Position numbers and translations under genes: made by a program
Source: a virus
Length of the DNA: 64,000 nucleotides
Direction: 5' to 3' (one strand)
IMG/VR virus record: IMGVR_UViG_3300043640_000353
Location: 1-64,000 of that record
Notes under the pieces: generated by a model
Databases searched by the model: none
The model's input: only the letters and a program-made list of their open reading frames with translations
Told to the model about the DNA's origin: nothing
Shown: piece after piece, positions 3,668-34,502 of the stretch
Position numbering within the stretch: position 1 is the first letter of the stretch
How the letters are laid out: each line of letters starts with the position of its first letter

Positions 3668-5117
3668 GGTATCTTAATATTATTTCGGTATTATTTAATA
3701 GCCCATTTGCCAATGAGCCTGAGGTATCTCTAGTTTTAATGGGTATGGAAGATCCAATATTAGGTTTATCCACATAGAAAAAACCCTGAATAGAACCTAA
3801 TATTACTTGTAATAGGTTAGAATTTATACCCTGAGTATTAATAAGGTATTCCCCAATATTATCATATGTAATTGTTATCCCCAAAATGGTATCATTTAAA
3901 GGTACATGGGTAGTTAAATAATTAGAGCTTTCAATGGTAGGATCATCGGTACCAACTTGGGAAATATTTGCTTTATATTCTCTATAACCCGGGGCAAGTT
4001 GTAAATAATCAGATTCTTCAGGATTGGTTATAAAGGTATTTGATCCTAAGCTATAGATTCCCAATTGAGATTGGTAATTTGAATCATATTTGTCCATTTC
4101 AAAAAATCCCGAAATAAAGTGTGATCCGCTGATTTGACCTAAATGTCTCTGTTTAACCCCAAATTCAGCCGCCCTTTCTATAATATTATCAAAAATAGCA
4201 CCCCTCTGGTTTACGGTATTAGCAGTTCCTAAAACCGTATTATTAAAAACATTGGGATTTCCCCATTGCCAATTTTGAAGAGAAATTTGAAATACCCTAT
4301 TTCTTAATCGATCCCCCCTAACCTCTATAATATCTGTGGCCAAATCATAAATTACCTTATCTACTTCCTCAATATACCCAACTCTTAAATTTGTCTTACT
4401 TAATTGTACATAAGCTGGACTAATTGTTGGATCAGTGCCATCTACCAGGGTATGATCCGTTAACTGATAATGATAACCGTCCCATATAAATATATCCCCC
4501 GTATCATAGGTATCCAATTGTGCTGGATTTGTATCTATTACAATTTCTTCGCCAGTGAAATTATCAACCAAATCAGTAATTGCCCATAAATCTGGTCTAT
4601 CGGATAAAATCTTCATTGTTGAACCAGCAATGGAGATTACAACCCCAGTTGCAGAATTAGTAAGGTTTGTAACTGTATCACTTATTGAGAATGAGCCTAT
4701 TAGGTTAGTAAAATCAAATTCTATGCAATTCCTATGCCATACTCCCCGTAAAGTTCCCGCGGGAATTGTAGTTTCATTAGATACCCCAGAATAATCTCCT
4801 ATACCAGCAAAATCCGGATTTTTAAATATCCCCCAACCATGAGATGTTAAATTTAAAGAATTTACAGCTCTGAGTATAATACCCCAATCAGCTTTTGCTC
4901 CAGCTAATGCCCCATCATTTGCATCCTCTATGCGATATAAACCCGGTTCTAATTCGCCATTGGTTTTTAAGATTCTTAAATCATATAAAGAAATATCCCT
5001 CGGTTGTACATCATCTAAGATATTAATATAAGAATCAAAAAAATCCTCAAAATCAGATTGAGTTGGTTCATAATTAGTTACCCATAGGCTTTTTAAATAA
5101 TCTCTAGTTTGTTTCAT
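3660..5117 (-). CDS. Putative tail fibre/baseplate-attached protein
   Basis: 485 aa. The N-terminus (KQTRDYLKSLWVTNYEPTQ) resembles the short helical attachment segment seen at the start of many Bacteroidetes phage fibre proteins. The rest is Gly/Thr/Asn-rich and beta-strand rich, with a WDGYHYQL element near residue 210. It starts 3 nt after gpI. Its place between gpI and the distal tail genes suggests a baseplate-proximal fibre. No enzymatic motif is seen. Confidence 0.5.
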   Translation of the reverse strand: MKQTRDYLKSLWVTNYEPTQSDFEDFFDSYINILDDVQPRDISLYDLRILKTNGELEPGLYRIEDANDGALAGAKADWGIILRAVNSLNLTSHGWGIFKNPDFAGIGDYSGVSNETTIPAGTLRGVWHRNCIEFDFTNLIGSFSISDTVTNLTNSATGVVISIAGSTMKILSDRPDLWAITDLVDNFTGEEIVIDTNPAQLDTYDTGDIFIWDGYHYQLTDHTLVDGTDPTISPAYVQLSKTNLRVGYIEEVDKVIYDLATDIIEVRGDRLRNRVFQISLQNWQWGNPNVFNNTVLGTANTVNQRGAIFDNIIERAAEFGVKQRHLGQISGSHFISGFFEMDKYDSNYQSQLGIYSLGSNTFITNPEESDYLQLAPGYREYKANISQVGTDDPTIESSNYLTTHVPLNDTILGITITYDNIGEYLINTQGINSNLLQVILGSIQGFFYVDKPNIGSSIPIKTRDTSGSLANGLLNNTEIILRYHG

Positions 5118-5120
5118 GTT

Positions 5121-5960
5121 TTAACTTATTTTAAAGGTTGATGTTCCAATTGCCATAAATCCAATGCCTACTCCAAATAATCTGCCATGGCAGTCAAATC
5201 CTTCGGCACTACTTCCCAATTTTTCTTGGGTATCCAGAGTTTCTCCAGAATCCGCTTTTAAATTTGAATCCAAAATAGTGTATTTTAAAAGGTTAATATT
5301 AATAATGTTTTCTACACATAAATTTACTTCCTCACATGCCTTACCCCCATTTACTATACCAGCCAGATGGGCATTAATTGGCTGATTAAATTCTATAATT
5401 TTAATAAAAGTTGGTAATATCTCGTCTGGTACAAATGTATATATTGGATCTGAGCAAGTTAATGTTGCTGGAGTTAATAAGGGATTTATTACAACTTCAT
5501 ATTCAGAACATGGTGGACATCCATTATCCAATCTTGCTCCCATATCTAAAGTTGTACCATCATCTAAAGTATACCATTCATCTGGTGGTAATTCCGATAT
5601 GGTAATATTAAATCCAATTAGGGAGAATAATAATTCATAAGCCTTAGCCGTACCTTTTATTTTATAAACCTGAATGATATAGGCCAATATTTTAGCATAG
5701 GCATCTGGATCACCCAATAAATCTGGAGGACTCCCCATAGTATAACCCAAAGTTGTTAAATATTTTGGATCTGTTTCAAAGGGATTTATTATTTTTAAAT
5801 AATTTTCAACCAATGGAGTTACCTCTTCATTAATTTCCATGCCAAAAATTTCCAAAAATCTTTCTAATAATCCCCTATCATTGATATCCCTGTAAGTATC
5901 ATTTACCTTATAATATAAAGGTAATTGGCCAAAGAAAAAATTCTGAAAATTATAGGCCAT
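5121..5960 (-). CDS. Baseplate protein gpI-like (tail protein I)
   Basis: 279 aa. The N-terminal half matches the tail protein I pattern: a short lead (FFFGQLPLYY), a helix, then PFETDPKYLTTLGYTMG and YKIKGTAKAYELLFSLIGF, the last resembling the gpI segment that precedes a two-strand unit. In P2 gpI and its relatives this protein joins the baseplate wedge to the fibres. The start overlaps the stop of the J-like gene at 5960, so the two are probably co-translated, as in P2 J-I. A Cys-containing C-terminal part (CPPCSEYE near 145) is an extension. Confidence 0.75.
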   Translation of the reverse strand: MAYNFQNFFFGQLPLYYKVNDTYRDINDRGLLERFLEIFGMEINEEVTPLVENYLKIINPFETDPKYLTTLGYTMGSPPDLLGDPDAYAKILAYIIQVYKIKGTAKAYELLFSLIGFNITISELPPDEWYTLDDGTTLDMGARLDNGCPPCSEYEVVINPLLTPATLTCSDPIYTFVPDEILPTFIKIIEFNQPINAHLAGIVNGGKACEEVNLCVENIININLLKYTILDSNLKADSGETLDTQEKLGSSAEGFDCHGRLFGVGIGFMAIGTSTFKIS

Positions 5961-7633
5961 TATTCTATAGGTGGGATTAATTGTTCATTAATGGTAAGAG
6001 TAATATCATTGATATCAATGAATGGCATGGTAAAATCATCAACTTCAATATTTTTATTCCATGGGTAGGATGTAAAAGTCCAACTTTGCCCCGATATATA
6101 TGAGGATGATACAATGGTGAATAATAAGGAGCTATCTGGATCTATAAATGGCATACTAGTTGTAGCGGTACCCATAAACGTATTATTTTTTACCACATTA
6201 AATAATGTACCACCGGCAAATGTAATACGCCATAAACTTTTTGTGGTACTACCAACAAGCGATTGTCTAACCCAGAGTAATTGATTCATGTGATTAATGG
6301 GTCTAGCGTATGGCCTTGTTCCTAATCCGACTAAATCCACAAATTCCACTTTGGGTAAATTATCCACCAAAGCAATTATATCAGATACCCTAATTTTTTT
6401 ATTAATATTCTGGTTATCATAAGATCCAAATTTCACTAATGCCGCCTTAGTTTCGGAACTAACTAATATTGGATCTTCCCTAAATTTACAGGTTACTTCT
6501 AAATTTAATATTAGGTTTGTTTGACCAGCAGCCATAACATCAATAAAGGTAGTTATCATTTTCCTATTGGTAACAAATCCAAATACAGATGTTAATAGGG
6601 GTGTAGAAGCAATACCCCCAAGTGTAGGAATAATATAAATTTTTACCTTTTTACCACAATTAAAATAAACCTCTGATCTACCAACACCCGGAGCCATTCT
6701 AGTTATATCCCTATAATCCTGATCTGTAACTGCCCTATCCAATGTTCTTATCGATAATGGAGCATTTATTCTTATTCTTTCCAGATCCTCATAGGGTGAA
6801 CCACCAGTTGAGGGATTTGGATTTGTTACCGTGACTGATGATACACCCGGTAATATAATTGAGGATACCAAAGTTGTAATTGAATTAGCCTCTACATTAC
6901 CCAAAGTGGCAGTGGTTATATCATAATCGGCCATTACCGCAAATGGCGTTGGGGGTATTTCCCCATTCGTACCATTGCCAAATACTACATAAGCTAACCC
7001 ATCAACATCTATTTCGATGATATAATGTTTATCAGTGGGTGTTGATAATCCCAGAGATGATACCGGGGTCCATATTGTACCATCTATATTTATTAATGAA
7101 GTACCATCAACATATGAACTGCCCAAGACGAAAGCCTGATTTATTGCCCCCGTGGTGGTTCCTAAATTAACAGATGTTTGCCTAACAATTTGTTTTGCCC
7201 CCATTGTTGCGGATGTAACTCCAGATGGTACAGATAAATTTTGTATGGTTACAAATGGTACATTATTACCAGTTTTTACCATAGTTCCAACTGGAATAAC
7301 ACCCGGACCAGTAGTTGCTGGGCTAAAGGTAAATGTAAGATCTGCGGTAGATGGGTAAGCAGCTTTAATCCTATAATCCAGTAGTTTTACTAATTTAACT
7401 ATTGAGGTAAATCTTCTTGCGGTAGCAATAAAAGATTCCCTAGCCATATTATCTATATAATATCCAAACATTTCAGCCACACCAGCAAACATACTGACTA
7501 TGACCACCAGTATATTAGATTCACTATGATCTGTTATTTCAGGATTATTTATGGTTAATCTACCCAATAAAGAATCCTTTATTTGTTGGTAGCTTCTATC
7601 AACATAACCTACCCAAGTATTTTTAATTGCCAT
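5960..7633 (-). CDS. Baseplate wedge protein, gp6/gpJ family
   Basis: 557 aa. The central diagnostic stretch of Baseplate_J proteins is visible: GGSPYEDLERIRINAP, followed by TLDRAVTDQDYRDI and a glycine-rich PGVGR (about residues 275-320). This protein forms the wedge ring around the hub in contractile tails. An N-terminal segment (NIMARES-type helix near 65-75) and an AYPST turn near 95 also fit. The last about 130 residues are an extension of unknown role. It lies between gp25-like and gpI-like genes, the canonical W-J-I order. Confidence 0.87.
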   Translation of the reverse strand: MAIKNTWVGYVDRSYQQIKDSLLGRLTINNPEITDHSESNILVVIVSMFAGVAEMFGYYIDNMARESFIATARRFTSIVKLVKLLDYRIKAAYPSTADLTFTFSPATTGPGVIPVGTMVKTGNNVPFVTIQNLSVPSGVTSATMGAKQIVRQTSVNLGTTTGAINQAFVLGSSYVDGTSLINIDGTIWTPVSSLGLSTPTDKHYIIEIDVDGLAYVVFGNGTNGEIPPTPFAVMADYDITTATLGNVEANSITTLVSSIILPGVSSVTVTNPNPSTGGSPYEDLERIRINAPLSIRTLDRAVTDQDYRDITRMAPGVGRSEVYFNCGKKVKIYIIPTLGGIASTPLLTSVFGFVTNRKMITTFIDVMAAGQTNLILNLEVTCKFREDPILVSSETKAALVKFGSYDNQNINKKIRVSDIIALVDNLPKVEFVDLVGLGTRPYARPINHMNQLLWVRQSLVGSTTKSLWRITFAGGTLFNVVKNNTFMGTATTSMPFIDPDSSLLFTIVSSSYISGQSWTFTSYPWNKNIEVDDFTMPFIDINDITLTINEQLIPPIE

Positions 7634-15839: not shown

Positions 15840-16295
15840 TTAAGCTTTGGCATTTTGATCTACCTCAAGTTCAATACTTTCCATGGTATTATCTGAACCT
15901 TTTCTATCCAGATCTATCCCATTTCTTTTTGAAGGCCAGCATCCATAAAATGTCCAGGTATTAATAATGGTAATTCCATCATTACTGTATTGGTCAACAG
16001 TTAATGTCCTTTTGTAGATGGAAGGTAAAAAACCACCACCCAAAAATTCATTTTGTACTTCAGACATCCAGTTCTCTACCCAATTATCTGGGGCTAATGC
16101 GGATGATATTTTCTCCATAAGCAATTTACCAATCTTTTTTATACCTCCGGTTTTTACCAGATAATTAGTATCCCCATGTTCTGTAATATCAATAGACCAT
16201 TCAGGTAATGTTATCTTTTGACATAAGAATGGGTTTAACCCGGGGGCATAAACTGAAAATTGGAATTGTTTTCTGGGGTTTGCTATGTTTGCCAT
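15840..16295 (-). CDS. Major tail tube protein (gp19-like)
   Basis: 151 aa, in the size range of T4 gp19. Features fitting the family: NPRKQFQFSVYAPGLNPF at the start, a TLPEW element, the loop segment HGDTNYLVKTGGIKKIGKL, and a late beta-strand TIINTWTFYGCWP followed by ESIELEVDQ. It polymerises inside the sheath. It follows the sheath gene and precedes a terminator, consistent with high expression. Confidence 0.85.
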   Translation of the reverse strand: MANIANPRKQFQFSVYAPGLNPFLCQKITLPEWSIDITEHGDTNYLVKTGGIKKIGKLLMEKISSALAPDNWVENWMSEVQNEFLGGGFLPSIYKRTLTVDQYSNDGITIINTWTFYGCWPSKRNGIDLDRKGSDNTMESIELEVDQNAKA

Positions 16296-16315: not shown

Positions 16316-18157
16316 TTATTCGAAACTTACACTGGTTGATGTAACTACCAGGTCTATTGCAATTTCCTGCATACTTGGTACAAGTTTCATATACAGCTTA
16401 ACCTTATATTTTCCATTATCAATATCGGTAAGATTATTTACCTGCACATCTTCAATTTTCTTAACATCCTGATCGCCATCCCAACGATACGAATACCAAG
16501 CCCTAGCCGTTACTAAGCTATCCAGGAAAGGTTCTACTTCCAAGAACATTGCCTTCATTGTTGGTAAATCCAATGGTTCTTGTAAATACCGTGTTAATGT
16601 AGGTGATAATGATTTTTGTAAGTAAATCAAAAACCTAACTGCGGATAGGAATGATAATTTGGAATTACTTAGTACGGCAGAGTAATTACCGTTTAAAAAT
16701 ATATTACCATCCTTTTTAATCACCATATTAATTTGACGATTTGAAAGGATATTAAGGTCATTGAATTTGGCAGTGGTTCCAAAATTATTAATTACTCCCA
16801 GGGAATTTATTACTAAACCCCTTGTTGTACCTGCTGGTGAGAACCATTCCCCAAATTCATCATTAACTGCCATAATACCTAATATATCCCCAAGTTCAGA
16901 GATATTCTTGGGGGCAGATGTTACGGGGTCTGTAATAATTAATCCACCCGCAAAGAAAGCGGTATAATAGGAATTGGTACCAATTGTTTGTCGGTCATTT
17001 ACAAGTAATGCTTGTGTATTATTGGCATTATTAAGATGTGCAAAATAAACCAAATCTTTTCTTGTTTCGGAATAAGCAGAACCAGCTATATGTAGTGTAG
17101 TACTGTGCATTTCTGGGGCAGCAATTTGAAGCATATCATCTACGGCATCAAAGGCATAAAAACCCGTTGATGATGCCGAGTCACCAGAATAATCCGTTAT
17201 ATTTGGGGTTGTTCCATCTGAACCCCCATTAAAGTAATATAACCCATTTGAGGGTCTGATATTAACAGCTGTACCTGAAAGATCAATATAATTAAAATCC
17301 AATAATGCTGAAGCCGTTTTTACATCATCTAAGAAATGGGAATTAGCAATTGTTGGATTACCGGGAACCGTAAGATTTGCATAAGTTTCCTGTAATGATG
17401 GTTCTTCCGTATGGCTTACCACCATATTAAAATATTGAGCATCACCATTTGAGGCATTTAAAATTTGAATGAATACCTTATTATAATCTAATCCCTCATA
17501 TTTCATGGAAGTCTCAAATACCTCTATGCCCGTTGGTGTAGATATGGTGCCCAGATCAGATATAGTGGTAGTTGCCTGAGATACACCCAGCGTTACCAAT
17601 GAACCGGTTAATACTAAGCTTATATTTGTAGCCGGGTATATTAATATGTCCCGATCATTGGTTACTCCCCCCGCTATTTGAACCACTTCAGCTGATTGTA
17701 CAAAAGGAGAGGTTTCAATGGCAGTGGCAATTGCTGCCATAGTGGTATCGGAATCTGTAGTGAATACCACTGGTGTTATGGCAACTCCATTTATGGTAAT
17801 AACATAACTGTTGGATGTAACCAATGCTGCGGAAAAAGCTAATTTTTTTGGTTTATTAAATGATGCCTTAATGGCATCCAATGTAGAGGCATCAGTAATA
17901 TCTGTATAATGTCCAATACGATTAATCCTTAATTGGGCTCCCCTATCAAAAGCCCTTTTACATAAAAGAGGAAAATCCGAATTTGGAATATATCCCCCAT
18001 ATACTCTTAAGAATTGAGCCCATGAAGTCATTAATAAATTGGGATTACTAAATGGGCCTCTTAATGTTATACCTTCTACTCCACTAATACCTTTAAGTAT
18101 GGCGGCAATTGAAAAGGATTGGTTTACGACATTAAATTTTACTACGGGAGCATTCAT
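16316..18157 (-). CDS. Tail sheath protein (gp18-like) with inserted domain
   Basis: 613 aa. The C-terminal domain carries sheath hallmarks: VRFLIYLQKSL, EPLDLPTMKAM, ARAWYSYRWDGDQDV and the closing LYMKLVPSMQEIAIDLVV. The N-terminus (GITLRGPFSNPNLLMTSWAQFLRVYGGY) also fits. Between about residues 105 and 210 lies an extra beta domain, FSAALVTSNSYVITINGV through DSDTTMAAIATAI, that recurs in the head decoration gene at 22921. Contraction of the sheath drives tube penetration. Confidence 0.87.
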   Translation of the reverse strand: MNAPVVKFNVVNQSFSIAAILKGISGVEGITLRGPFSNPNLLMTSWAQFLRVYGGYIPNSDFPLLCKRAFDRGAQLRINRIGHYTDITDASTLDAIKASFNKPKKLAFSAALVTSNSYVITINGVAITPVVFTTDSDTTMAAIATAIETSPFVQSAEVVQIAGGVTNDRDILIYPATNISLVLTGSLVTLGVSQATTTISDLGTISTPTGIEVFETSMKYEGLDYNKVFIQILNASNGDAQYFNMVVSHTEEPSLQETYANLTVPGNPTIANSHFLDDVKTASALLDFNYIDLSGTAVNIRPSNGLYYFNGGSDGTTPNITDYSGDSASSTGFYAFDAVDDMLQIAAPEMHSTTLHIAGSAYSETRKDLVYFAHLNNANNTQALLVNDRQTIGTNSYYTAFFAGGLIITDPVTSAPKNISELGDILGIMAVNDEFGEWFSPAGTTRGLVINSLGVINNFGTTAKFNDLNILSNRQINMVIKKDGNIFLNGNYSAVLSNSKLSFLSAVRFLIYLQKSLSPTLTRYLQEPLDLPTMKAMFLEVEPFLDSLVTARAWYSYRWDGDQDVKKIEDVQVNNLTDIDNGKYKVKLYMKLVPSMQEIAIDLVVTSTSVSFE

Positions 18158-18177
18158 ATATATAGGTATTAGATTTA

Positions 18178-18462
18178 TTAATCTATTTCAGTTTCGGTTT
18201 CTAGGCTAATCCTTTTTGGCTTATTTGCAGGGGAATTTTGGGAATTGGTTATTTTGAAATCCAGTAAATCCAATCTTTTGGTAATTGCCAAAAATTTATC
18301 TGCCGAAAATTCCTTCTCATATTTTGATTCAACGATTGCATCATGGATCTCAATTTTTAAAGAATACCATTGGGCTAAAAATCCCGACAAGAAAGTTAAA
18401 AGAAATACAATATCTTTTGGGGTTAAATTAAATTTAAAATTATCTGGAACTTCCTTAGCCAT
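18178..18462 (-). CDS. Small single-span membrane protein
   Basis: 94 aa. One hydrophobic segment at about residues 17-34 (IVFLLTFLSGFLAQWYSL), then a charged helix (about 45-72) and a Pro/Lys/Glu tail. It lies between sheath and a tail-completion gene, an odd place for a membrane protein. Possible roles: i-spanin-like or holin-like lysis protein, or a virion-associated membrane protein. I cannot choose by sequence. Confidence 0.5.
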   Translation of the reverse strand: MAKEVPDNFKFNLTPKDIVFLLTFLSGFLAQWYSLKIEIHDAIVESKYEKEFSADKFLAITKRLDLLDFKITNSQNSPANKPKRISLETETEID

Positions 18463-18517
18463 AACAAATTCACTTTTTACAATTAAACCATATATGGTTT
18501 AATTTAATTAGTATTGT

Positions 18518-19453
18518 TTAAGGTATAATCATATCCTCCATATATTCTGAATCCCCAGGTTCCCCATCTTGGAAATCCACTGTTATTTGGTTAATAGGTG
18601 CAACTACTACCCCAGTTACAATATTTTCGGTTTCAAAGATATCTTCGGCTTTATACATATAAATATCTTCATTAATTCCCTCAGTGGTATTTGTTATACT
18701 TCTGTAACTGTATTGGTTAACAAATATTTTTTGATTGGTATCAACATAGGATTCTATATAACCCCTTTTGGGTGTTGCCAATCCAATTATGCCATGTAAT
18801 ATTCTTGATTGAACTGCTGAATTACTTACCAAATGAATATCGAAAGTTAATTCTACTGTTTGTGGTGGTTGTATACTTACACTAAAACTTCCGGGGTTTA
18901 ATGGGTCATCATTAAAGGGCGTGTAAATTCTATCTGGGGCACCCCCCAATGCTCCGGGTAATGATTGGTTGGTTATTATCACAATTCTTGGAATTTTCTT
19001 AAGGTATTTAGCTTGAGAATTTGATGAGCCAAAAACCTCTATGGCAAATCCCTGGGTATTTTTAATATTGGTAATTGCATTAGATAGTAGGGCAACTCCA
19101 ATGGGATCATCATAATAAAAATAAATACTAATACTACCATCCACAATAGCCGATGGTATAGCTTCCGCAACTGTTATTGTGGTAACAGTTGTAAATACCG
19201 ATGTTGTTATGGTATAATTGGCATTATTACCAGTACTTAATATCACTTGAAAAATCCTTCCCGGAGAAAAGAAGGAGGTAACATTGGTTGCTACTTGAAA
19301 AGTTTGTGACCCGATATTTACTGTGGTAATGGGTCTTATAACTTTAGCCTCAACATCTGGTAGATAACCTTTATCCACAAGTTCTTTTCGGATAGAGTGG
19401 AATATACTCCTTTCAACTAATTCTCGGGAATCACTTAATGGTGTTAATGACAT
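18518..19453 (-). CDS. Neck/tail-terminator region structural protein
   Basis: 311 aa, beta-rich. The N-terminus (LVERSIFHSIRKELVDKGYLPD) is a long amphipathic helix, followed by Thr/Ile/Val strands and an acidic C-terminus (QDGEPGDSEYMEDM). The start overlaps the stop of the 171-aa tail-completion gene, and the gene is upstream of the sheath, a place usually taken by neck or tail-terminator proteins. Not recognised at family level. Confidence 0.5.
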   Translation of the reverse strand: MSLTPLSDSRELVERSIFHSIRKELVDKGYLPDVEAKVIRPITTVNIGSQTFQVATNVTSFFSPGRIFQVILSTGNNANYTITTSVFTTVTTITVAEAIPSAIVDGSISIYFYYDDPIGVALLSNAITNIKNTQGFAIEVFGSSNSQAKYLKKIPRIVIITNQSLPGALGGAPDRIYTPFNDDPLNPGSFSVSIQPPQTVELTFDIHLVSNSAVQSRILHGIIGLATPKRGYIESYVDTNQKIFVNQYSYRSITNTTEGINEDIYMYKAEDIFETENIVTGVVVAPINQITVDFQDGEPGDSEYMEDMIIP

Positions 19454-19968
19454 TATAATAGGGGTTTAACTGGGTATCCTCTTTCTCTTAATTTATCTCT
19501 TATTATTTTATTAACAGTATTTCTCATACCTTTTAATCCCCCCATGTCATTATTTAAGGTATAAGTCCATAAAGGTCTATGCGGTCTACCCGCCATATAT
19601 GACCAAGCTTCATGTATCTGGGCAATTTTGGCAATTTCTTTACCATTGGGGTATATTAAACCAGCTGGTACTCCGGCACTATAGACCTTATTGGTTCTCC
19701 AAGCTTTAATGGCATTGTAATAATCCCAACTGGCAATTAAGAGATCTTCTTCCCCATACTTAGCCATCTTCTTATCAGCATATTTACTACTCAGGGGAGT
19801 CCACCCTTTTATATCCTGATTTTTTAAATGGGCTTTTACTTTTCTCGCATACCTTTCAGCAACTGATCTTTGTGCGGAGATTGAGATAAGCTGTAGGTTT
19901 CTGGGCAAACTATTCATAAGTCTTTTAACCCTATCCCAATCCCCAAATAAAGAGAAGTTTATATTCAT
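19453..19968 (-). CDS. Phage virion morphogenesis/tail completion protein (gpS/HK97 gp10-like)
   Basis: 171 aa. Family-like features: GWTPLSSKYADKK, then LIASWDYYNAIKAW, a VYSAGVPAG strand, and AKIAQIHEAWSYMAGRPHRPLW, which closely follows the A-x-IHexG..RPxRPxW pattern of Mu gpG/P2 gpS-type proteins. It helps complete the tail at the head-tail join. Confidence 0.68.
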   Translation of the reverse strand: MNINFSLFGDWDRVKRLMNSLPRNLQLISISAQRSVAERYARKVKAHLKNQDIKGWTPLSSKYADKKMAKYGEEDLLIASWDYYNAIKAWRTNKVYSAGVPAGLIYPNGKEIAKIAQIHEAWSYMAGRPHRPLWTYTLNNDMGGLKGMRNTVNKIIRDKLRERGYPVKPLL

Positions 19969-19971
19969 TAC

Positions 19972-20442
19972 TTATAGGTTACCCATATAATCCCCAGTTA
20001 ATATCTCTTCCCTGGATAATATAATCATTATGAGTAATGGTTCATCCTTTGCTTGGGATATTGGAGTTTGACCAGTGGATTTATATTTAATGCCCTTATG
20101 TATAAACCTATCTGCATCTTGTTGGAAATTGAAATTACCCGCCGGAGTTAAATATCCTGAATCCCTTAGATATTTAATGTTTAATAAAATTACCTCAGTT
20201 TGCCTATCTAATTCCCCAGTATCTGTGGTTTGATTAATTGGCCATTTCCTAAAAGCATTATAATCAAATAATCCAAGAAGGGTAACCACGGCAAATTGTT
20301 CTGTTAAATTATCCTCACCATTCCTATCTATACCACCCCGGGATTTTAACCAAATGATTTGATCCTGATTAAAGGTATCATGTCCATCGTTTATTATGGA
20401 TTTATATTGAGCCCATACTGAATTACCTACTAAATCTGCCAT
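19972..20442 (-). CDS. Head-tail connector/neck protein, unassigned
   Basis: 156 aa, between the PKD-adaptor and the tail-completion gene, sharing a 1-nt junction with the former. Helical first third and a beta-rich last third (RFIHKGIKYKSTGQTP, LLIMIILSREEILTG). Position fits a head-closure (gp16-like) or neck protein; sequence alone does not prove it. Confidence 0.45.
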   Translation of the reverse strand: MADLVGNSVWAQYKSIINDGHDTFNQDQIIWLKSRGGIDRNGEDNLTEQFAVVTLLGLFDYNAFRKWPINQTTDTGELDRQTEVILLNIKYLRDSGYLTPAGNFNFQQDADRFIHKGIKYKSTGQTPISQAKDEPLLIMIILSREEILTGDYMGNL

Positions 20443-21215
20443 TACAATGAAAGTTTAATATATGAAGGCCAATCAGTCCATAATTTATGAGTATTTCTAC
20501 CAGCTTTAAGTTCAATAAATTTGGGATCAGGTAATGGTGGGCACATAGGTAATGAAATCATTAATCTGTAAGCTAAGCTACAAAGTTCTTGACTCAATGC
20601 ACTTATTACTCCATTATCCCGAGCAAATACGGCTTTTTGTATATTGCTAATATCCTGAAACTCAGCTTCAGATGGTCCGGTAACAATTTTCTTAACCACA
20701 GCGGAATTCCCATTTGCCCCGCCTGCTGCCCCAGATATTGCTCCCTGGGAAGCTAAGTCAATGGATATAGAATAGGCAGCTAAGTAAGCAATTAGGGCAT
20801 TTGCTAGAGGTGGGTAGGCAGTTTCGTTAAAAACATTATTAAAAGAAACTTCTGGAGAAACTAGTGGTTGTATATATAATTGCCATGTAGCAATATAGGC
20901 CTGTTTAGCTTCTTCATTTATGGATATACCCCCAGGTAATTTGATGGAAATAAGTTGGGATATGGTTATGGGTAATACCGGGGATGTAGAGATTATGAAA
21001 GATCTCTGTAATGAGGATGACCCATCGGTATTGGTAGCTATAAGCTTTACAATATAAGTTCCAGAAGTAGAATATGTATGGGAAGGATTTTGTAGAATAC
21101 TTGTGGTAGAATCACCAAAATCCCATGACCAGGAAGTTGGGGTACCTGTTGATGAATCCTGAAAATTTAATGTTAAAAAATTAGGACTTACCAAAAAGTT
21201 AGCAACTGGGATCAT
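20442..21215 (-). CDS. Head-tail adaptor with N-terminal PKD domain
   Basis: 257 aa. Residues about 3-77 form a clear PKD domain: LNFQDSSTGTPTSWSWDFGD, then PSHTYSTSGTYIVKLIATN. The rest (about 85-257) is helical with a LANALIAYLAAYSISIDLASQG segment, matching a small connector/adaptor placed downstream of the capsid genes. Such Ig-like modules often decorate virions and may bind carbohydrates. No signal peptide is present. The PKD domain is confident; the connector role is inferred from position. Confidence 0.7.
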   Translation of the reverse strand: MIPVANFLVSPNFLTLNFQDSSTGTPTSWSWDFGDSTTSILQNPSHTYSTSGTYIVKLIATNTDGSSSLQRSFIISTSPVLPITISQLISIKLPGGISINEEAKQAYIATWQLYIQPLVSPEVSFNNVFNETAYPPLANALIAYLAAYSISIDLASQGAISGAAGGANGNSAVVKKIVTGPSEAEFQDISNIQKAVFARDNGVISALSQELCSLAYRLMISLPMCPPLPDPKFIELKAGRNTHKLWTDWPSYIKLSL

Positions 21216-21233
21216 GGGATTTATTTAATGGTT

Positions 21234-21650
21234 TTATTCGTTATCTAAAAGATATGATTCTAAATCATCATCCGATAATTTAGATATCTTTTTGAATTCT
21301 TTGGATTTAAGTTTTAGGGCTTGTAATCTTTTTATTAAAACCTTTCTTTCTTCAGAAAGATCTTCATCGCCATCTTCATCATCTTCAGGATTCTCTACTT
21401 TGGGTTTTGGTTTTTCTTTTGGAAAATCCAAATCAATTTGAGTTCTGGTTTCTTCGGGTAATTTTGAAAGCATTCTTTCGAATTCTGGTTCCTCTATTCT
21501 GATGATATGGCCAGAGGCAGAAGCTTTCTTTATTTGTTTGGTAATTTCTAAGGTTACACCTGGAATACCATTTGTAACCTTAAGCTTGGATTTTGGATCA
21601 TAAAAAACTGATGATTTTTCTCCCAGTTTATAGTAATGTTTTTGTGCCAT
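21234..21650 (-). CDS. Small charged head-region protein
   Basis: 138 aa, strongly charged, with an acidic central tract (ENPEDDEDGDEDLSEE near 90-105) and a lysine-rich C-terminal helix ending in LSDDDLESYLLDNE. It lies between the major capsid and adaptor genes and is preceded on its own strand by a hairpin (21697-21723). Function unknown. Confidence 0.5.
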   Translation of the reverse strand: MAQKHYYKLGEKSSVFYDPKSKLKVTNGIPGVTLEITKQIKKASASGHIIRIEEPEFERMLSKLPEETRTQIDLDFPKEKPKPKVENPEDDEDGDEDLSEERKVLIKRLQALKLKSKEFKKISKLSDDDLESYLLDNE

Positions 21651-21696
21651 GAGATTAGGTTTTTAGTTATAATAAAAAATAGTATGTATAAACCAA

Positions 21697-21723
21697 AAAG
21701 GTGAAGTTTTTAGCTTCACCTTT
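21697..21723 (-). terminator. Hairpin after the major capsid gene
   Basis: AAAGGTGAAG (21697-21706) pairs perfectly with CTTCACCTTT (21714-21723) around a 7-nt loop. It lies directly 3' of the capsid stop at 21744, as is common for the most abundant virion transcript. Confidence 0.8.
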
Positions 21724-21743
21724 AAGTTATGGGGTTTTAAATA

Positions 21744-22871
21744 TTAATCCTCAATTGTTACTGATTCAAGGGCATCCACATCCATGTAAGTTGGGAAACC
21801 ATTGGTTGTATCAAAATCTGTAGAAGTATCCAATAATACCCTTCCATCTCTGAATACAATACCGAAACCAGTGGTTAAGGTAGCATAAGTTGCCTCAGTT
21901 TGATTAGATACAATCTTCTCTGATTCAACCAATAATGGTTGAGCATTATATTTAATAACCGTCGAAGTTCGATCAATAATCAACTGTTGATTAACCGGCA
22001 TGCTTCCATGGATATAATAATCCGTTGAAGCAGGGATTGGAGTTTTTAATTTGATATTGTTATTTGCCATAACACCGGCAGCAGCAATACCCCCATTTTG
22101 GTTGGTTTTGAACTCGGGTAAGTTAAGGGTATTTAGGGCAGCAGTTTCCCCCCCAATCATGATTGTTGGTAATCTACCAATCCTTGACATGCGAATCCAA
22201 ATCCTCAGGATATCTGCATAAGTTAATGTACCAGGGGTAGTAATACCAATTACCGGTGCTGATTCTGATCCATCTGCCTGTTCCCCGTTAATAAGGGTAT
22301 CAATCATTAAACCATCCATGGCATGTCCTAATTTAACCCCAAAATCCTGAAGAAAAATAGATACCACATTAATTGATACATAATTCCTTACCTCATAAGG
22401 GATTTTGACCCCTTTACCAATTTTACGGAGTTTTAGGGTTTTTTGCCCGAATGAAACACCACCCAAAGGAATTGTTTCAGCAACCCCAACGTAAGCTGGC
22501 GTGGCATCACTCATATTCCAATGTGGGATAGTAATACTTAGGCTTTTAACTGATTGTTCAGCCGCAACCACATTACTCCAAATAGGAGCCTTTCCCATTC
22601 CCAATCTTAGGGATTCCCGGAAAATTTCCGGAATTAGCCATCGTACAGAATCATCCGGTAAGTTTACCATATTTTCAATGGTATCCATACTGGGATCAAT
22701 TCCAATATCCTCAAATACTTGTCCCAGGGATACATTATGTTTCTTCTTTACAAAAGTCTCAAAGCTTACATCAATTGGATTATCCGGGTTTTTACGAAGG
22801 GAATCACATTGTTGTGACATTGCCTTGATATCTTTGGCATATTTGGATGTTTCAAATTTTTTCAGATCCAT
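21744..22871 (-). CDS. Major capsid protein, HK97 fold
   Basis: 375 aa. The order after terminase, portal, protease/scaffold and decoration gene is diagnostic. The N-terminal arm (about 1-70) is long and charged. A segment around 125-170 (TPAYVGVAETIPLGG, KIGKGVKIPYEVRN) looks like the E-loop and spine helix, and about 215-235 (YADILRIWIRMSRIG) like the A-domain. The isolated hairpin downstream supports high expression. Confidence 0.78.
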   Translation of the reverse strand: MDLKKFETSKYAKDIKAMSQQCDSLRKNPDNPIDVSFETFVKKKHNVSLGQVFEDIGIDPSMDTIENMVNLPDDSVRWLIPEIFRESLRLGMGKAPIWSNVVAAEQSVKSLSITIPHWNMSDATPAYVGVAETIPLGGVSFGQKTLKLRKIGKGVKIPYEVRNYVSINVVSIFLQDFGVKLGHAMDGLMIDTLINGEQADGSESAPVIGITTPGTLTYADILRIWIRMSRIGRLPTIMIGGETAALNTLNLPEFKTNQNGGIAAAGVMANNNIKLKTPIPASTDYYIHGSMPVNQQLIIDRTSTVIKYNAQPLLVESEKIVSNQTEATYATLTTGFGIVFRDGRVLLDTSTDFDTTNGFPTYMDVDALESVTIED

Positions 22872-22920
22872 AATCTTGGTTTTATTTTAAGTTTATATTG
22901 CGTTCGAATGTTTTTTAGAA

Positions 22921-23646
22921 TTATTTCATAATTACCCTTACAGTTTCATCTGCACCGGTGGTTGAATCAATTACCCAACCAATGATATTTGTGGCAGTTA
23001 CTGAAGTATCCGTTACCTTAACATAACCGGCAACGGCATCATAAGAACTATATGCAACAGGACCATGAGCAAGGGCATCTGCAGATTTGCAATAGGTTAT
23101 ACAATATCCCATAAGAGCAACCGTACAATATTGACCATATACAGCATCCATTACGGCATAACCAATTTTGGTTGTACTTGCCGTGGCTGCTGTTAAAGGT
23201 TGGATTCTACCGGTTGTTGGATTAATTTCCACTGGCATCCCCTCAAAAATCTTTTTATTTACATCAGCCGCAACCACTGTTGCTTGTGACCCACCAGCCG
23301 TTACAACAAACCCAGTTAAAGGAATACCCGTTGTTTGATTATCTGGGACTACCATAATTACCCTGTCACTTGTACCGGCATCCACTACATAAGCATCCCT
23401 TACCCCGGCCATACCTGCGATGGCAGTGGCAATTGCTGCCATAGTGGTATCGGAATCTGTGGCAAAAGTTATAGCGGGAATTGCCACACCAGCAACATTA
23501 CCATTAATAACATTGGCTGTAACCAATGCTGCTGAAAAAGTTAATGAATGGGATAACCCTTCCACTTCAAATTCTTCATGTAACTTATGAGCTTCGGGGC
23601 CCTTAAGAAAAATTGTTTTTGATGGTGTACCGAATGTTGTTGGCAT
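22921..23646 (-). CDS. Head decoration/cement protein with inserted beta domain
   Basis: 241 aa. The last about 100 residues (EGMPVEINPTTGRIQPL, IGYAVMDAV, CTVALMGY) have the layout of DUF2190-type capsid cement proteins. Inserted near residues 33-128 is a domain, FSAALVTANVINGNVAGV through DSDTTMAAIATAI, shared with the sheath. One DNA tract is identical over 41 bp (23420-23460 and 17718-17758). It sits between protease and capsid genes. Decoration is inferred from order and C-terminal layout. Confidence 0.65.
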   Translation of the reverse strand: MPTTFGTPSKTIFLKGPEAHKLHEEFEVEGLSHSLTFSAALVTANVINGNVAGVAIPAITFATDSDTTMAAIATAIAGMAGVRDAYVVDAGTSDRVIMVVPDNQTTGIPLTGFVVTAGGSQATVVAADVNKKIFEGMPVEINPTTGRIQPLTAATASTTKIGYAVMDAVYGQYCTVALMGYCITYCKSADALAHGPVAYSSYDAVAGYVKVTDTSVTATNIIGWVIDSTTGADETVRVIMK

Positions 23647-28245: not shown

Positions 28246-28938
28246 CTATTTATTCTTTTTACTTTCAGATTTAGGTTTTGTATTATCCTTACCAATACCC
28301 TTAAAAACCCTATTAATAAAGGATTCATAAGGTACAATATCATTCTTATCCATTCTCACTGTGGAATGAGAATGGATACCTGGAACAATTGATTTTATTA
28401 CTTTCTCATCAAATTCCCAAAATTCTGATTCTTCCCAAGTTGGTGGTAAAGGTATATTGAAATCGGCCATTAATTTATTGGTTAATTCAATGAGTGATTG
28501 GATTTGTTTATCAGTATAGGAATGGTAATATCTTTTACCTCTCCAACCTTTAATATCCATATCCCATACCTCATCTTTGGGAATTTCTTTTCCTGCTATT
28601 TTATTTGGGAAAAGAGGGTAAAACATAAATTTACCTGCTTCCAATTGAAGATTTCCGGCCGATACAATTTCTATGCCTATAGATTGTTTTTCAATATGAT
28701 CATCATCACCTTTAACACCAGCATGGTATGCCCAATTATTTGGATCAAATGTTTGGTAAATTGTACCATCCCTATCAATGACAAAGGCAGTACCCACGTG
28801 TTCGGGTGTTTGATTCCACCAATCAATGGCTCCAGTAGCAGTTGTACCAGCCGTATGATGCCAGAAGATCATAGTTTTTTTATCCGCTTTGGGATAAAAT
28901 TGGGTATTTTTTAGTTGTTTGGTTTTTACAATATTCAT
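28246..28938 (-). CDS. N-acetylmuramoyl-L-alanine amidase (endolysin)
   Basis: 230 aa, Amidase_2 type. Zinc ligands visible: WHHTAG (His27, His28), NWAYHAGVKG (His near 72), and GIHSHSTVRMDKND near 188-201 with a closing His and Asp. No signal peptide or wall-binding domain, so a holin is expected to release it. It cleaves the stem-peptide amide. It overlaps the methyltransferase stop by four bases and is followed by a hairpin. Confidence 0.87.
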   Translation of the reverse strand: MNIVKTKQLKNTQFYPKADKKTMIFWHHTAGTTATGAIDWWNQTPEHVGTAFVIDRDGTIYQTFDPNNWAYHAGVKGDDDHIEKQSIGIEIVSAGNLQLEAGKFMFYPLFPNKIAGKEIPKDEVWDMDIKGWRGKRYYHSYTDKQIQSLIELTNKLMADFNIPLPPTWEESEFWEFDEKVIKSIVPGIHSHSTVRMDKNDIVPYESFINRVFKGIGKDNTKPKSESKKNK

Positions 28939-29966
28939 TTTGATTTTGATTTAAGTTTAACCTTCATTAAACAATCTGCAAACCATTGACCTATTTCATA
29001 AGGAGGGCATTTTGTTGCAGTTACCCTTGCTTTATTAATGCAATATTGGTCTTTGGCTTTATCATACCATAATTTAAAATCATCTGGAATCCCCTGTATG
29101 CGGGCTAATTCCCTCGGGGACATAATATCACCCTTCGAATTGAATTGCCTGTTCTGTTTTCGGGCAGTTAATGGGTAAGAATTAGCCAAATTTCTATAAA
29201 CCCCGGGTAAATTTTTCATATTACCTTTACCCGTGGTTGTGGCATCCCATTTTTTTCTATCTTCATATTCCTTACTGTTCCAAATTTCCTTGATTTTAGT
29301 CAAGCTTAGTTTTTTAAAATCCTTTTCCATACAAACAATGGTACTGGATTTTTCCCTTACATGACATAAATGAGGATTAGGATAAATAAGATTTGATTCT
29401 AGTTCCAAACATTTCTTTAATCTTCCATTTTGTTGGTTTAATTTAAAATCTTTAAGTTTAAATACATTCTTACCCTTCCTTATTCCAACTATTATTAACC
29501 TTTGCCTAGAAATTTGAGAATTACCAAATGCACTAACCGAAACATGGTATTTAATCAGATTATATTTTGGGAATTGTTTATCAAATTCATTCTCGGGAAA
29601 GCTTTTAAATAGGGTTGTTAGATTTTCAAATAGGAAAATCTTGGGTTTAAATCTTTTAACAGACCTTAGAAATAATTTCATAGTGGCATCCTTTTTAGCA
29701 TTACCCAATTTTTTACCTCGGGAATAAGCAAGAGAAGATGAATGACCACATGTGGGATGGGATATGATTATATTGGGCTTTTTATTAAATTCCATAACTA
29801 AACCATCAGAATTATATAATTTTTTTTCACCAAAATTTAATTTCCATTGTACATCTCCGGGTGTTTTATAATCTGACCTTGTTTCAATTGCCCCCATAAC
29901 ATACTTTTTCAGGGGATGAATCATAACCCCATTACCCGTAGATATACCCAATATTTTTAGCTTCAT
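28935..29966 (-). CDS. DNA cytosine-C5 methyltransferase
   Basis: 343 aa from the preferred ATG at 29966; a longer frame to 30026 overlaps the divergent gene and is less likely. Motif I-like GISTGNGV near 7-14, a catalytic-loop-like SHPTCGHSS with Cys73 in P-T-C (instead of P-P/S-C-Q), FENL at 113-116 (motif VI), SRQRLIIVG (about 153-161, motif VIII), and RELARIQGIPDDF with IGQWFADCL near the end (motifs IX/X). It probably protects phage DNA from host restriction. Confidence 0.78.
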   Translation of the reverse strand: MKLKILGISTGNGVMIHPLKKYVMGAIETRSDYKTPGDVQWKLNFGEKKLYNSDGLVMEFNKKPNIIISHPTCGHSSSLAYSRGKKLGNAKKDATMKLFLRSVKRFKPKIFLFENLTTLFKSFPENEFDKQFPKYNLIKYHVSVSAFGNSQISRQRLIIVGIRKGKNVFKLKDFKLNQQNGRLKKCLELESNLIYPNPHLCHVREKSSTIVCMEKDFKKLSLTKIKEIWNSKEYEDRKKWDATTTGKGNMKNLPGVYRNLANSYPLTARKQNRQFNSKGDIMSPRELARIQGIPDDFKLWYDKAKDQYCINKARVTATKCPPYEIGQWFADCLMKVKLKSKSK

Positions 29967-30019
29967 ATTTTCTTGTTTAAGATTATATAAAATGGTATTG
30001 CTAATTACTATTACTATAA

Positions 30020-30355
30020 ATGCCAAAGATAATCATCCTGGGACATAAAAAAATATCTGGATACGCTGTTATAAGTGATAAATTTGGTGAAATCTATTTT
30101 AGCAAGGAAGAACTAAATGCACTTTATTTTAAACTTTACCTTGAAAATAATATAGGCATAGAATATTTATCCTGGAGTGAATTACAAAAACTAAAATTGA
30201 TAAGGTACCAATTAAAAAAAAGAATTAAATCCCAATATGGAACTACCAACCTGGGTAGTAAGTTTACTATTGAAAAAATAATGACCTATTATAAATATTA
30301 TGAAACAAAACGAAAGAAAGGATCTTGGAGTAGGGATTTTGGTTACAAAGAATAA
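30020..30355 (+). CDS. Hypothetical protein
   Basis: 111 aa, the first gene of the plus-strand block, divergent from the methyltransferase. Basic C-terminus (YYKYYETKRKKGSWSRDFG). A short strand at the start (KIIILGHKKISGYAVI) precedes two helices. Not recognised. The following gene starts inside it (56-nt overlap). Confidence 0.5.
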   Translation: MPKIIILGHKKISGYAVISDKFGEIYFSKEELNALYFKLYLENNIGIEYLSWSELQKLKLIRYQLKKRIKSQYGTTNLGSKFTIEKIMTYYKYYETKRKKGSWSRDFGYKE

Positions 30356-30602: not shown

Positions 30603-31283
30603 ATGAACGTATCCTTAGTGAGCTTAACCCAATCGCTCATAAAAAATGAAAGGGGAGAACAATTAAATCCTGAAGAGTTAATTGTTTATATTGCCCGGGT
30701 ATCCAATCCGGGCAATCAAATGAATACCGAAACATCCAATAAGCTTATTGCTTACCTTATGAAAAACAAACACTGGAGTCCCCTAGAAATGGTGGATTTT
30801 ACAATGGAAATTGTTACTTCTCGGGCCATTGCTGCGCAAATCCTAAGGCATTGGTCATTTAGTTTCCAGGAATTCTCTCAACGGTATGCCAAAGTAACTG
30901 AAATGGAACCCATCCAATTAAGATTACAGGCACAATCAAACCGGCAATCTTCCCTAGAAGAATGTAATCCAATCCTTAAAAACAATTCATCCGCCATGGA
31001 TGCCATTAATGATTATTTACAAGCTGGCCAATCTTTATACAATCAATTATTGGATGCCGATGTTGCTAAGGAATGTGCTCGTATGATTTTACCATTAACT
31101 ATTGGAACCAAAATTTATATGAAGGGTAGTGTAAGGGAGTGGGTTCATTATCTAACAACCCGTTGTGATTCTCATACCCAATTAGAACACAGGGAAATTG
31201 CCTTAGCTATTCAACAACATTTTATAACCTTATTCCCAAATATTTCTTCGGGGTTAAATTGGATATCAGATGCTAACGGATAA
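30603..31283 (+). CDS. thyX: Flavin-dependent thymidylate synthase ThyX
   Basis: 226 aa. The ThyX signature is seen at 82-95 as RHWSFSFQEFSQRY, with Trp in place of the second Arg of RHRxxSxxxxSxRY. Further matches: RVSNPGNQ, the KNKHWSPLEMV stretch (55-64), LPLTIGTKIY and REWVHYLTTRCDSHTQLEHREIA. It makes dTMP from dUMP with methylene-THF and FAD, supplying phage DNA synthesis. The following DUF3820-like gene overlaps its last 14 nt. Confidence 0.9.
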   Translation: MNVSLVSLTQSLIKNERGEQLNPEELIVYIARVSNPGNQMNTETSNKLIAYLMKNKHWSPLEMVDFTMEIVTSRAIAAQILRHWSFSFQEFSQRYAKVTEMEPIQLRLQAQSNRQSSLEECNPILKNNSSAMDAINDYLQAGQSLYNQLLDADVAKECARMILPLTIGTKIYMKGSVREWVHYLTTRCDSHTQLEHREIALAIQQHFITLFPNISSGLNWISDANG

Positions 31284-33711: not shown

Positions 33712-34158
33712 TTATTTTGTTAAAGATTCTTTTGCGATCTTTAAAACCCGTTCATAGTCTTGGATAGCTAGTTCATCAGTAACGTTTGTTAAACTTTTTA
33801 AAGAAAAATCATTTAAAATGTATTCTTTTTTGTAAAAAGAAATAAATTCTCTAGATAACTTTTTTATTTCTTCTTTATTTTTTTCAACAAAAAATTTGTT
33901 AGCAAAAAGTTTTAAATCCCTACGAATTTTGTTTCTTTTTTTCTTTTCGTCTTTTGCAGAAAGCTTATTTTTTTTATCAGCGATTGAATTTTCGAGTTGA
34001 AAACGATATAAGTAGTTTTTTTCTTTTACTGCGGTTGAACGATCTTTTTCAGCTGCTTTTTTTACTACTGCTGCTGCATTAGCACTATCAATAGCTTTTT
34101 CATTTTTTGAAACTTTTGCGCTTTGCGCTTTTTTTTCATTTTTTACTTTGTTTTCCAT
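33712..34158 (-). CDS. Lysine-rich protein of the YPxDC-related family
   Basis: 148 aa, 20-25% Lys/Arg. Residues 30-145 align in outline with the 124-aa protein at 40920: VVKKAAEKD, NYLYRF, KKRNKIRRDLKLFANKF and the FISFYKKEYI end correspond to ALVKKITDKK, LVYKYP, KRKAFRTKARKTLTK and FKKANYL. The Y-P-x-D-C core itself is altered here. Its 5' leader is one of two identical 85-bp copies. Confidence 0.6.
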   Translation of the reverse strand: MENKVKNEKKAQSAKVSKNEKAIDSANAAAVVKKAAEKDRSTAVKEKNYLYRFQLENSIADKKNKLSAKDEKKKRNKIRRDLKLFANKFFVEKNKEEIKKLSREFISFYKKEYILNDFSLKSLTNVTDELAIQDYERVLKIAKESLTK

Positions 34159-34240
34159 TTTTTTTAGAGTTTTAAAAAGTTTAACTTATTATTTATTTAT
34201 ATATATATAACGTAAAGATAAAAAAAAGATACAGAAAAAA
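34156..34240 (-). repeat. 85-bp direct repeat, copy 1 (5' leader of 33712 gene)
   Basis: From the CAT of the ATG at 34158 rightwards, 85 bp are identical to 34418-34502. It includes the AAAACTCTAAAA leader, a TATATATATA tract and TCTTTTTTTTATC. It is upstream of the lysine-rich gene on its own strand and overlaps the 3' end of nothing else. Confidence 0.9.
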
Positions 34241-34420
34241 TTAAAATAAATTTATTATTTCGAATTTTGTTAACACTGCTGCTATTGCAGCAGATACAGC
34301 AATAAAAATAAATAAATAAAAATTAGTTTTGTTATTATTTTTTTTAAGCTGGTAAGTTTTTTTTTGCGTAAATGAAATTTCGAGAATTTCGTTTTTTACG
34401 GACTTGGGAAGTGTTTTCAT
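34241..34420 (-). CDS. Small single-span membrane protein (59 aa)
   Basis: ATG at 34420, TAA at 34241, 59 codons. N-terminal charged half, then a hydrophobic segment NFYLFIFIAVSAAIAAVLTKF (about 33-53), one predicted membrane span. Its start sits in the second copy of the 85-bp duplicated leader, the same leader used by the downstream lysine-rich gene. Not recognised; a host-interference membrane peptide is a possibility. Confidence 0.65.
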   Translation of the reverse strand: MKTLPKSVKNEILEISFTQKKTYQLKKNNNKTNFYLFIFIAVSAAIAAVLTKFEIINLF

Positions 34421-34502
34421 TTTTTTTAGAGTTTTAAAAAGTTTAACTTATTATTTATTTATATATATATAACGTAAAGATAAAAAAAAGATACAGAAAA
34501 AA
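34418..34502 (-). repeat. 85-bp direct repeat, copy 2 (5' leader of the 59-aa gene)
   Basis: Identical to 34156-34240 base for base. It holds the same leader and AT-rich stretch just upstream of the ATG at 34420. The two copies probably give matched transcription or translation of the two genes. Confidence 0.9.

Follow-up and report, generated by a model that had tools for sequence, protein, structure and literature searches.

The lateral domain of contractile tail sheaths is not directly involved in contraction. It consists of seven strands folded as a beta-sandwich, with a helix, and its fold has already been reported not only in sheaths but also in nozzles and auxiliary capsid proteins, as well as in FliD and flagellin (PMC12846349). 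The version carried by gp36 of crAss001 was named the FD domain (PMC10172136), and in Mu the outward, structurally variable domain of the sheath is known as domain III (PMC11915804). A survey of additional sheath domains placed them away from the tube and suggested roles in adhesion or stability (PMC9230969). Promiscuous Ig-like domains of phages were treated by Fraser et al. 2006, as cited in the same survey (PMC9230969). Here we analyzed a stretch of 64,000 nucleotides (the window), positions 1 to 64,000 of the virus record IMGVR_UViG_3300043640_000353, an assembled virus contig of 73,789 bases. Its tail sheath and its head decoration protein carry copies of one domain, which is predicted to adopt this fold, and the two genes share an identical tract of 41 base pairs (bp) that suggests recent recombination between them.

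Among the described systems, the lateral domains of contractile sheaths (residues 94-188 in A-1(L), 103-214 in Mu, 95-201 in Milano and 86-181 in PhiTE) share the predicted fold of the window domain (Z 8-10) and its place in the chain, residues 106-202 of the window sheath. Mu domain III is likely the counterpart of the window sheath domain, if domain III is equated with residues 103-214. In contrast to these systems, the window domain has no detectable sequence match among solved structures, where a profile search returned nothing significant, and the window phage carries the family on its head too. In crAss001 gp36 and the Patience minor capsid protein, a capsid decoration protein likewise bears a FliD/flagellin-like domain (7qof_a, Z 8.0; 8giu_1, Z 6.2), but the core of gp36 is a PH-like domain whereas that of the window decoration protein resembles beta-tulip/SHP proteins. 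To our knowledge, the crAss001 and Patience phages have no contractile sheath and hence no sheath partner. The promiscuous Ig-like domains are similar in being accessory modules exchanged horizontally among unrelated virion surface proteins. They differ from the window domain in predicted fold; here, moreover, related copies are found on two to three proteins of one phage, and the window phage presents a tract of apparently recent exchange.

The same domain is inserted in the sheath and the decoration protein

The tail sheath gene (16316-18157, minus strand) encodes 613 residues and matches PHROG 23 (phrog_23) over residues 84-612 (E 1e-28); its match to Pfam Phage_sheath_1C lies slightly below the cut-off (E 1.6e-5). 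The head decoration gene (22921-23646, minus strand) encodes 241 residues that comprise an N-terminal arm, the inserted domain and a beta-tulip core. Comparing the two proteins by BLASTP yielded a single significant stretch between sheath residues 106-202 and decoration residues 35-129, with 50 of 98 positions identical (51%; E 6e-11). The domain is encoded at 17552-17842 in the sheath gene and at 23254-23547 (about residues 34-131) in the decoration gene, both on the minus strand, and nucleotide identity across the shared segment is 57% over 300 aligned bases. The two inserts are homologous, i.e., copies of one domain, as the earlier note on this sequence had proposed. Compositional bias, which that note had named as a possible source of the likeness, does not explain it: the identity extends across the entire domain, the insertion boundaries are clean and the members form a coherent profile family. 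No third copy was detected by the family profile in the whole 73,789-base record.

Relatives of both proteins were found without the domain. In three relatives of the decoration protein (L009, L096 and L110) the N-terminal arm (..HEEFEV) joins the core directly and the domain is absent at the same junction; the L096 protein has 150 residues. A sheath 44% identical to that of the window (L003) has a linker of about 20 residues in place of the domain, which is also absent from the full-length sheath of L099. Because such relatives exist for each gene, the domain is an insert in both, placed in an otherwise complete scaffold and, in the sheath, at the position of the known members. Neither scaffold requires it. 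Both the sheath and the decoration protein carry the domain in the window and in G015 (contigs L039/L092), only the sheath does in L096 and only the decoration protein in L003. Gain or loss of the domain thus proceeds separately in the two genes.

The decoration core was recognized from structure prediction. The full-length model is of moderate confidence (predicted local distance difference test, pLDDT, 80; predicted template modelling score, pTM, 0.62). Its core aligned with phage 21 SHP (1td0; Z 7.3, 59 residues aligned, 2.2 A) and with the base of the phi29 head fibre gp8.5 (6qvk; Z 9.6, 54 residues aligned, 1.2 A), with matched ranges that span the insert in both cases. The core is thus predicted to be of the beta-tulip/SHP type. 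The window decoration protein has no match to Phage_cement (PF22758) or to any other Pfam family, whereas several other proteins hosting the domain do score with PF22758, and the whole protein found no match among named phage records.

Predicted fold of the domain

We modelled the decoration copy of the domain alone, using 35 sequences, and the prediction is of high confidence (pLDDT 89.8; pTM 0.82). The model comprises strands at 2-7, 16-21, 52-58, 66-71, 80-86 and 94-99 and a helix at 35-47, which is the beta-sandwich with a flanking helix of FD/lateral accessory domains (flagellin D2-FliD-like fold). Its best structural matches include the nozzle of P-SCSP1u (Z 10.7), the outer domain of the sheath in A-1(L) (residues 94-188; Z 10.1, 90 residues aligned, 2.3 A), the Mu sheath (Z 8.6) and flagellin (Z 8.1-8.8), as well as a nozzle domain of T7, the sheaths of PhiTE, Milano and 7-7-1, FliD, and the crAss001 and Patience auxiliary capsid proteins. 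Foldseek E values were modest (best 6.4e-3). The sheath copy probably takes the same fold, given its 51% identity to the decoration copy in a gap-poor alignment. The Ig-like domain suggested by the earlier note is not supported by these results: the model contains a helix, which is atypical for Ig domains, and the top matches are outer domains of sheaths, podovirus nozzle domains and flagellin D2/FliD. No Ig domain was prominent among the fold matches listed, which is no proof of absence.

The only Pfam family touched by several members is the flagellin hook IN motif (Flagellin_IN, PF07196), known from flagellin D2 and FliD, which are themselves among the fold matches. It was matched by six of the 35 members (best E 2.3e-4; 18.1 bits in L030), below the curated cut-off wherever a score was displayed and over part of the 55-position model. 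In the window, a match at 17717-17800 (minus strand) scores 15.6 bits against a cut-off of 22.7, and it is the sole such match in the record. Pfam has no model for this sequence family.

Distribution and similarity of the copies within phages

We extended the search with a family profile to IMG/VR and GenBank phages, merging near-duplicates by hand, and found the domain in about 37 contigs or records. The proteins that host it, as classified by profile, are cement/decoration proteins (PF22758, phrog_563 and the window type), sheaths (phrog_23 and DUF3383/phrog_205), baseplate J wedge proteins, a neck terminator and a DUF4054 head protein. The domain is present in at least two different virion proteins in 12 phages (window, G015, L036, L038, L041, L043, L047, L054, L056, L057, L033/G010 and L112), so that sharing of this kind is seen in at least eleven uncultured phages besides that of the window. 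Nine of the 12 sets combine a sheath with a decoration or cement-type protein or, in L112, with both others; L043 and L033/G010 pair the sheath with baseplate J, L038 a cement protein with a neck terminator, and L057 a cement protein with the DUF4054 protein. A 257-residue protein of L047 has no Pfam match. On L112 (12,952 bases), three nearby carriers were recognized by reading the sequence (cement-like, neck-terminator-like and DUF3383-like sheath), and their copies are 29% identical. Tandem arrays of two to three domains are found in four proteins, namely the sheaths of L012 (Rhizobium phage RHph_I42, 2164-4491), L025 (5611-7848) and L055 (9059-11680) and the L040 baseplate J protein (5157-7193).

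Other searches returned little. Among named phage records, tblastn with two query copies found the domain in only five Rhizobium phages. The whole sheath used as a single query found no viral contig, although a query built from an alignment did find some. Two scans of genome contigs for relatives in cellular genomes or prophages gave none that was confirmed, but these scans required a short exact motif and are weak evidence of absence. We found no paper on the sharing of a domain between the sheath and the decoration protein of one phage, in a search that covered little of the subscription literature.

We then compared copies located in different proteins. Identity was higher within phages than between phages (respectively, 0.385 and 0.324; P = 2e-4; permutation test; eleven phages), and the excess persisted (P = 0.0019) after removal of the window and of L056, which is one of two related phages. 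Amino-acid composition was rejected as the cause, the expected identities being 9.4% and 9.2%. These results bear on the possibility that each copy was acquired on its own from outside phages that share a habitat, through a shared donor pool and with no copying within the genome. The window sheath domain does show 46% identity to those of the L055 and L025 sheaths as well, and several phages show no within-phage excess. However, separate acquisition leaves unexplained both the overall excess and the 41-bp tract, which stands amid saturated synonymous divergence, and we consider it unlikely.

An identical tract suggests recent exchange between the two genes

Positions 17718-17758 in the sheath gene and 23420-23460 in the decoration gene (both minus strand) are identical over 41 bp, which encode TDSDTTMAAIATA plus two nucleotides. 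The identity had been pointed out before and proved exact and maximal. A second identical block of 15 bp, encoding AALVT of FSAALVT, lies upstream in the coding sense (17816-17830 and 23518-23532). Inside the tract, 13 residues have matching codons, the last of them in two of its three bases, an agreement with a probability of 6e-6 given the codon usage of the phage. Outside the tract, the same codon is used at 16 of 35 identical residues, which is the chance rate (14 expected). When we shuffled codon blocks of the pair, no run longer than 32 nucleotides was obtained in 20,000 trials. The other pairs of copies within contigs (n = 17, including the window) share runs of 8-13 nucleotides, and the 99.9th percentile of 1,018 pairs between contigs is 26 nucleotides, a value surpassed by a single pair that comes from a near-identical phage. 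The tract is thus longer than expected and lies inside otherwise diverged copies, as gene conversion would leave it.

The earlier note had left the choice between recent gene conversion and strong constraint. The tract encodes TDxxTTMAAIA, the most conserved motif of the family, and one could suppose that protein constraint together with chance agreement of codons, or a signal at the DNA level, produced the identity with no recent exchange. Against this, most other within-phage pairs retain the motif and yet share at most 13 nucleotides. The longest run shared by the G015 sheath and decoration copies is 9 nucleotides, and these copies share 8-11 nucleotides with those of the window, which is why the tract fits recent recombination rather than constraint. 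A conserved DNA signal was rejected on the same ground, since the codons are not kept in G015; in addition, a degenerate nucleotide pattern for the tract peptide, with serine as TCN only, had zero matches in IMG/VR. Together with the low probability of the codon agreement, these observations make an origin without recent exchange very unlikely. An artefact of metagenome assembly at a short repeat was also considered, because the contig is assembled and 41 bp falls within the range of assembly k-mers. A misjoin nevertheless needs a repeat that already exists, and both genes are collinear with their G015 orthologues across and beyond the domain; such an artefact would be extremely improbable.

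Older exchange is suggested by the sheath domain as a whole. Between the window and G015, this domain is 35% identical, compared with 50% for the other parts of the sheath. The window sheath domain is also nearer to decoration domains (0.51 for G015 and 0.49 for its own phage) than to the orthologous sheath domain of G015. This indicates that the window sheath domain was probably replaced by exchange. The tree joins the decoration domains of the window and G015 as sisters (support 96), with the sheath domain of G015 in another group (support 79-87). The simplest account would be an older replacement of the sheath domain, followed recently by a short recombination that carried 41 bp or more from one window gene to the other, in either direction. 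G015 is the closest relative with both copies, but its domains, at 35-54% identity, are too diverged to polarize the exchange.

Gene block and neighboring features

Both genes belong to a head-to-tail block on the minus strand, whose order of transcription includes a 484-residue protein, the decoration protein, the major capsid protein, genes of the connector region, the sheath and the tube. The decoration gene lies between the open reading frame of the 484-residue protein and the major capsid gene (21744-22871, minus strand; phrog_3922, E 7.5e-32; Pfam Phage_capsid_4 above the cut-off). A T4 gp19-like tube gene (15840-16295, minus strand; Pfam Phage_T4_gp19, E 1.4e-13) comes after the sheath gene in the order of transcription. 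One protein of the connector region (20442-21215, minus strand) has a PKD domain at its N-terminus (Pfam PKD_4, E 1.6e-16), and its G015 orthologue (L092, about 3940-5000) has two PKD domains in tandem. This difference in number suggests that the lineage varies a second surface-type module too.

Three further features were observed in the window. A perfect 24-bp palindrome, AATTAAACCATATATGGTTTAATT, is located at 18481-18504, between the open reading frames 18178-18462 and 18518-19453. An AT-rich direct repeat of 89 bp is present in two copies (34152-34240 and 34414-34502; 99% identical, 262 bp apart) beside the open reading frame 33712-34158 and is possibly a regulatory or replication element. 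Finally, the open reading frames 28935-30026 (minus strand) and 30603-31283 (plus strand) resemble, by reading of the sequence alone, a DNA cytosine methyltransferase and a ThyX-type thymidylate synthase, respectively.

Origin and role of the shared domain

Our favored interpretation, to which we assign a probability of about 0.72, is that the two copies derive from one promiscuous FD/lateral accessory domain, which spread among virion genes, was partly homogenized and underwent recent exchange. The accessory domain would be of the flagellin-D2/FliD-like kind, i.e., the FD domain of the crAss001 capsid and the lateral domain of contractile sheaths. The sheath copy would occupy an outward-facing position (106-202, compared with about 90-210 in A-1(L), Mu and Milano) and the decoration copy a loop of a beta-tulip protein, close to the N-terminus. 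Within the lineage, in-frame copying or recombination would spread the domain among the genes of virion proteins, and the copies would become homogenized in part.

Several observations weigh against this interpretation. Three of the eleven within-phage pairs (G015, G010 and L112) present no excess similarity, which indicates that homogenization is not general, and the position of the window sheath domain in the tree is weakly supported. Some amino-acid identity is expected in the tract, which overlaps the most conserved motif of the family. Conversion is suggested by one genome, without close strain-level relatives. Exposure of the domain on the outside of the assembled head and sheath is suggested by homologous positions rather than by a structure of this virion. 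Lastly, the FD domain of crAss001 packs on the capsid, which favors stabilization (PMC10172136).

We tentatively propose that the domain makes outward, multivalent and low-affinity contacts with the host or the environment, at close to even odds. Variable copy number and insertion points suggest that the module protrudes, instead of making a single fixed contact within the lattice. Together with the frequent absence of the domain, they fit weak outward contacts better than a fixed structural clamp. The main alternative, and a serious one, is that a reused packing module clamps neighboring capsomers on the head and adds contacts between subunits on the sheath. The crAss001 FD domain does contact the capsid protein around each capsomer (PMC10172136), and cementing roles have been proposed for additional sheath domains (PMC9230969). 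Such a role seems somewhat less probable: relatives of both proteins lack the domain, it occurs in zero to three tandem copies at a variable site, and it is also found on neck and baseplate proteins.

The promiscuity of the fold has already been published. What is new is the close sharing at the sequence level, within one phage, among proteins of the head, neck, sheath and baseplate, the partial homogenization seen statistically and the tract of exchange, which probably reflects recombination. The scatter of this fold is usually known from remote structural likeness, which hides the route of travel; here the sequences are close enough to catch the spread, and they supply a profile for a family missing from Pfam. 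Such phages reuse one outer module across the particle, and this makes it testable whether modules serve the whole particle, in adhesion or shielding, or each protein separately. It is conceivable, though we judge it rather improbable, that one module on head, neck, sheath and baseplate forms a matched surface set, in which recombination between genes maintains the likeness of the copies. If so, the whole particle would present one ligand-binding or antigenic surface.

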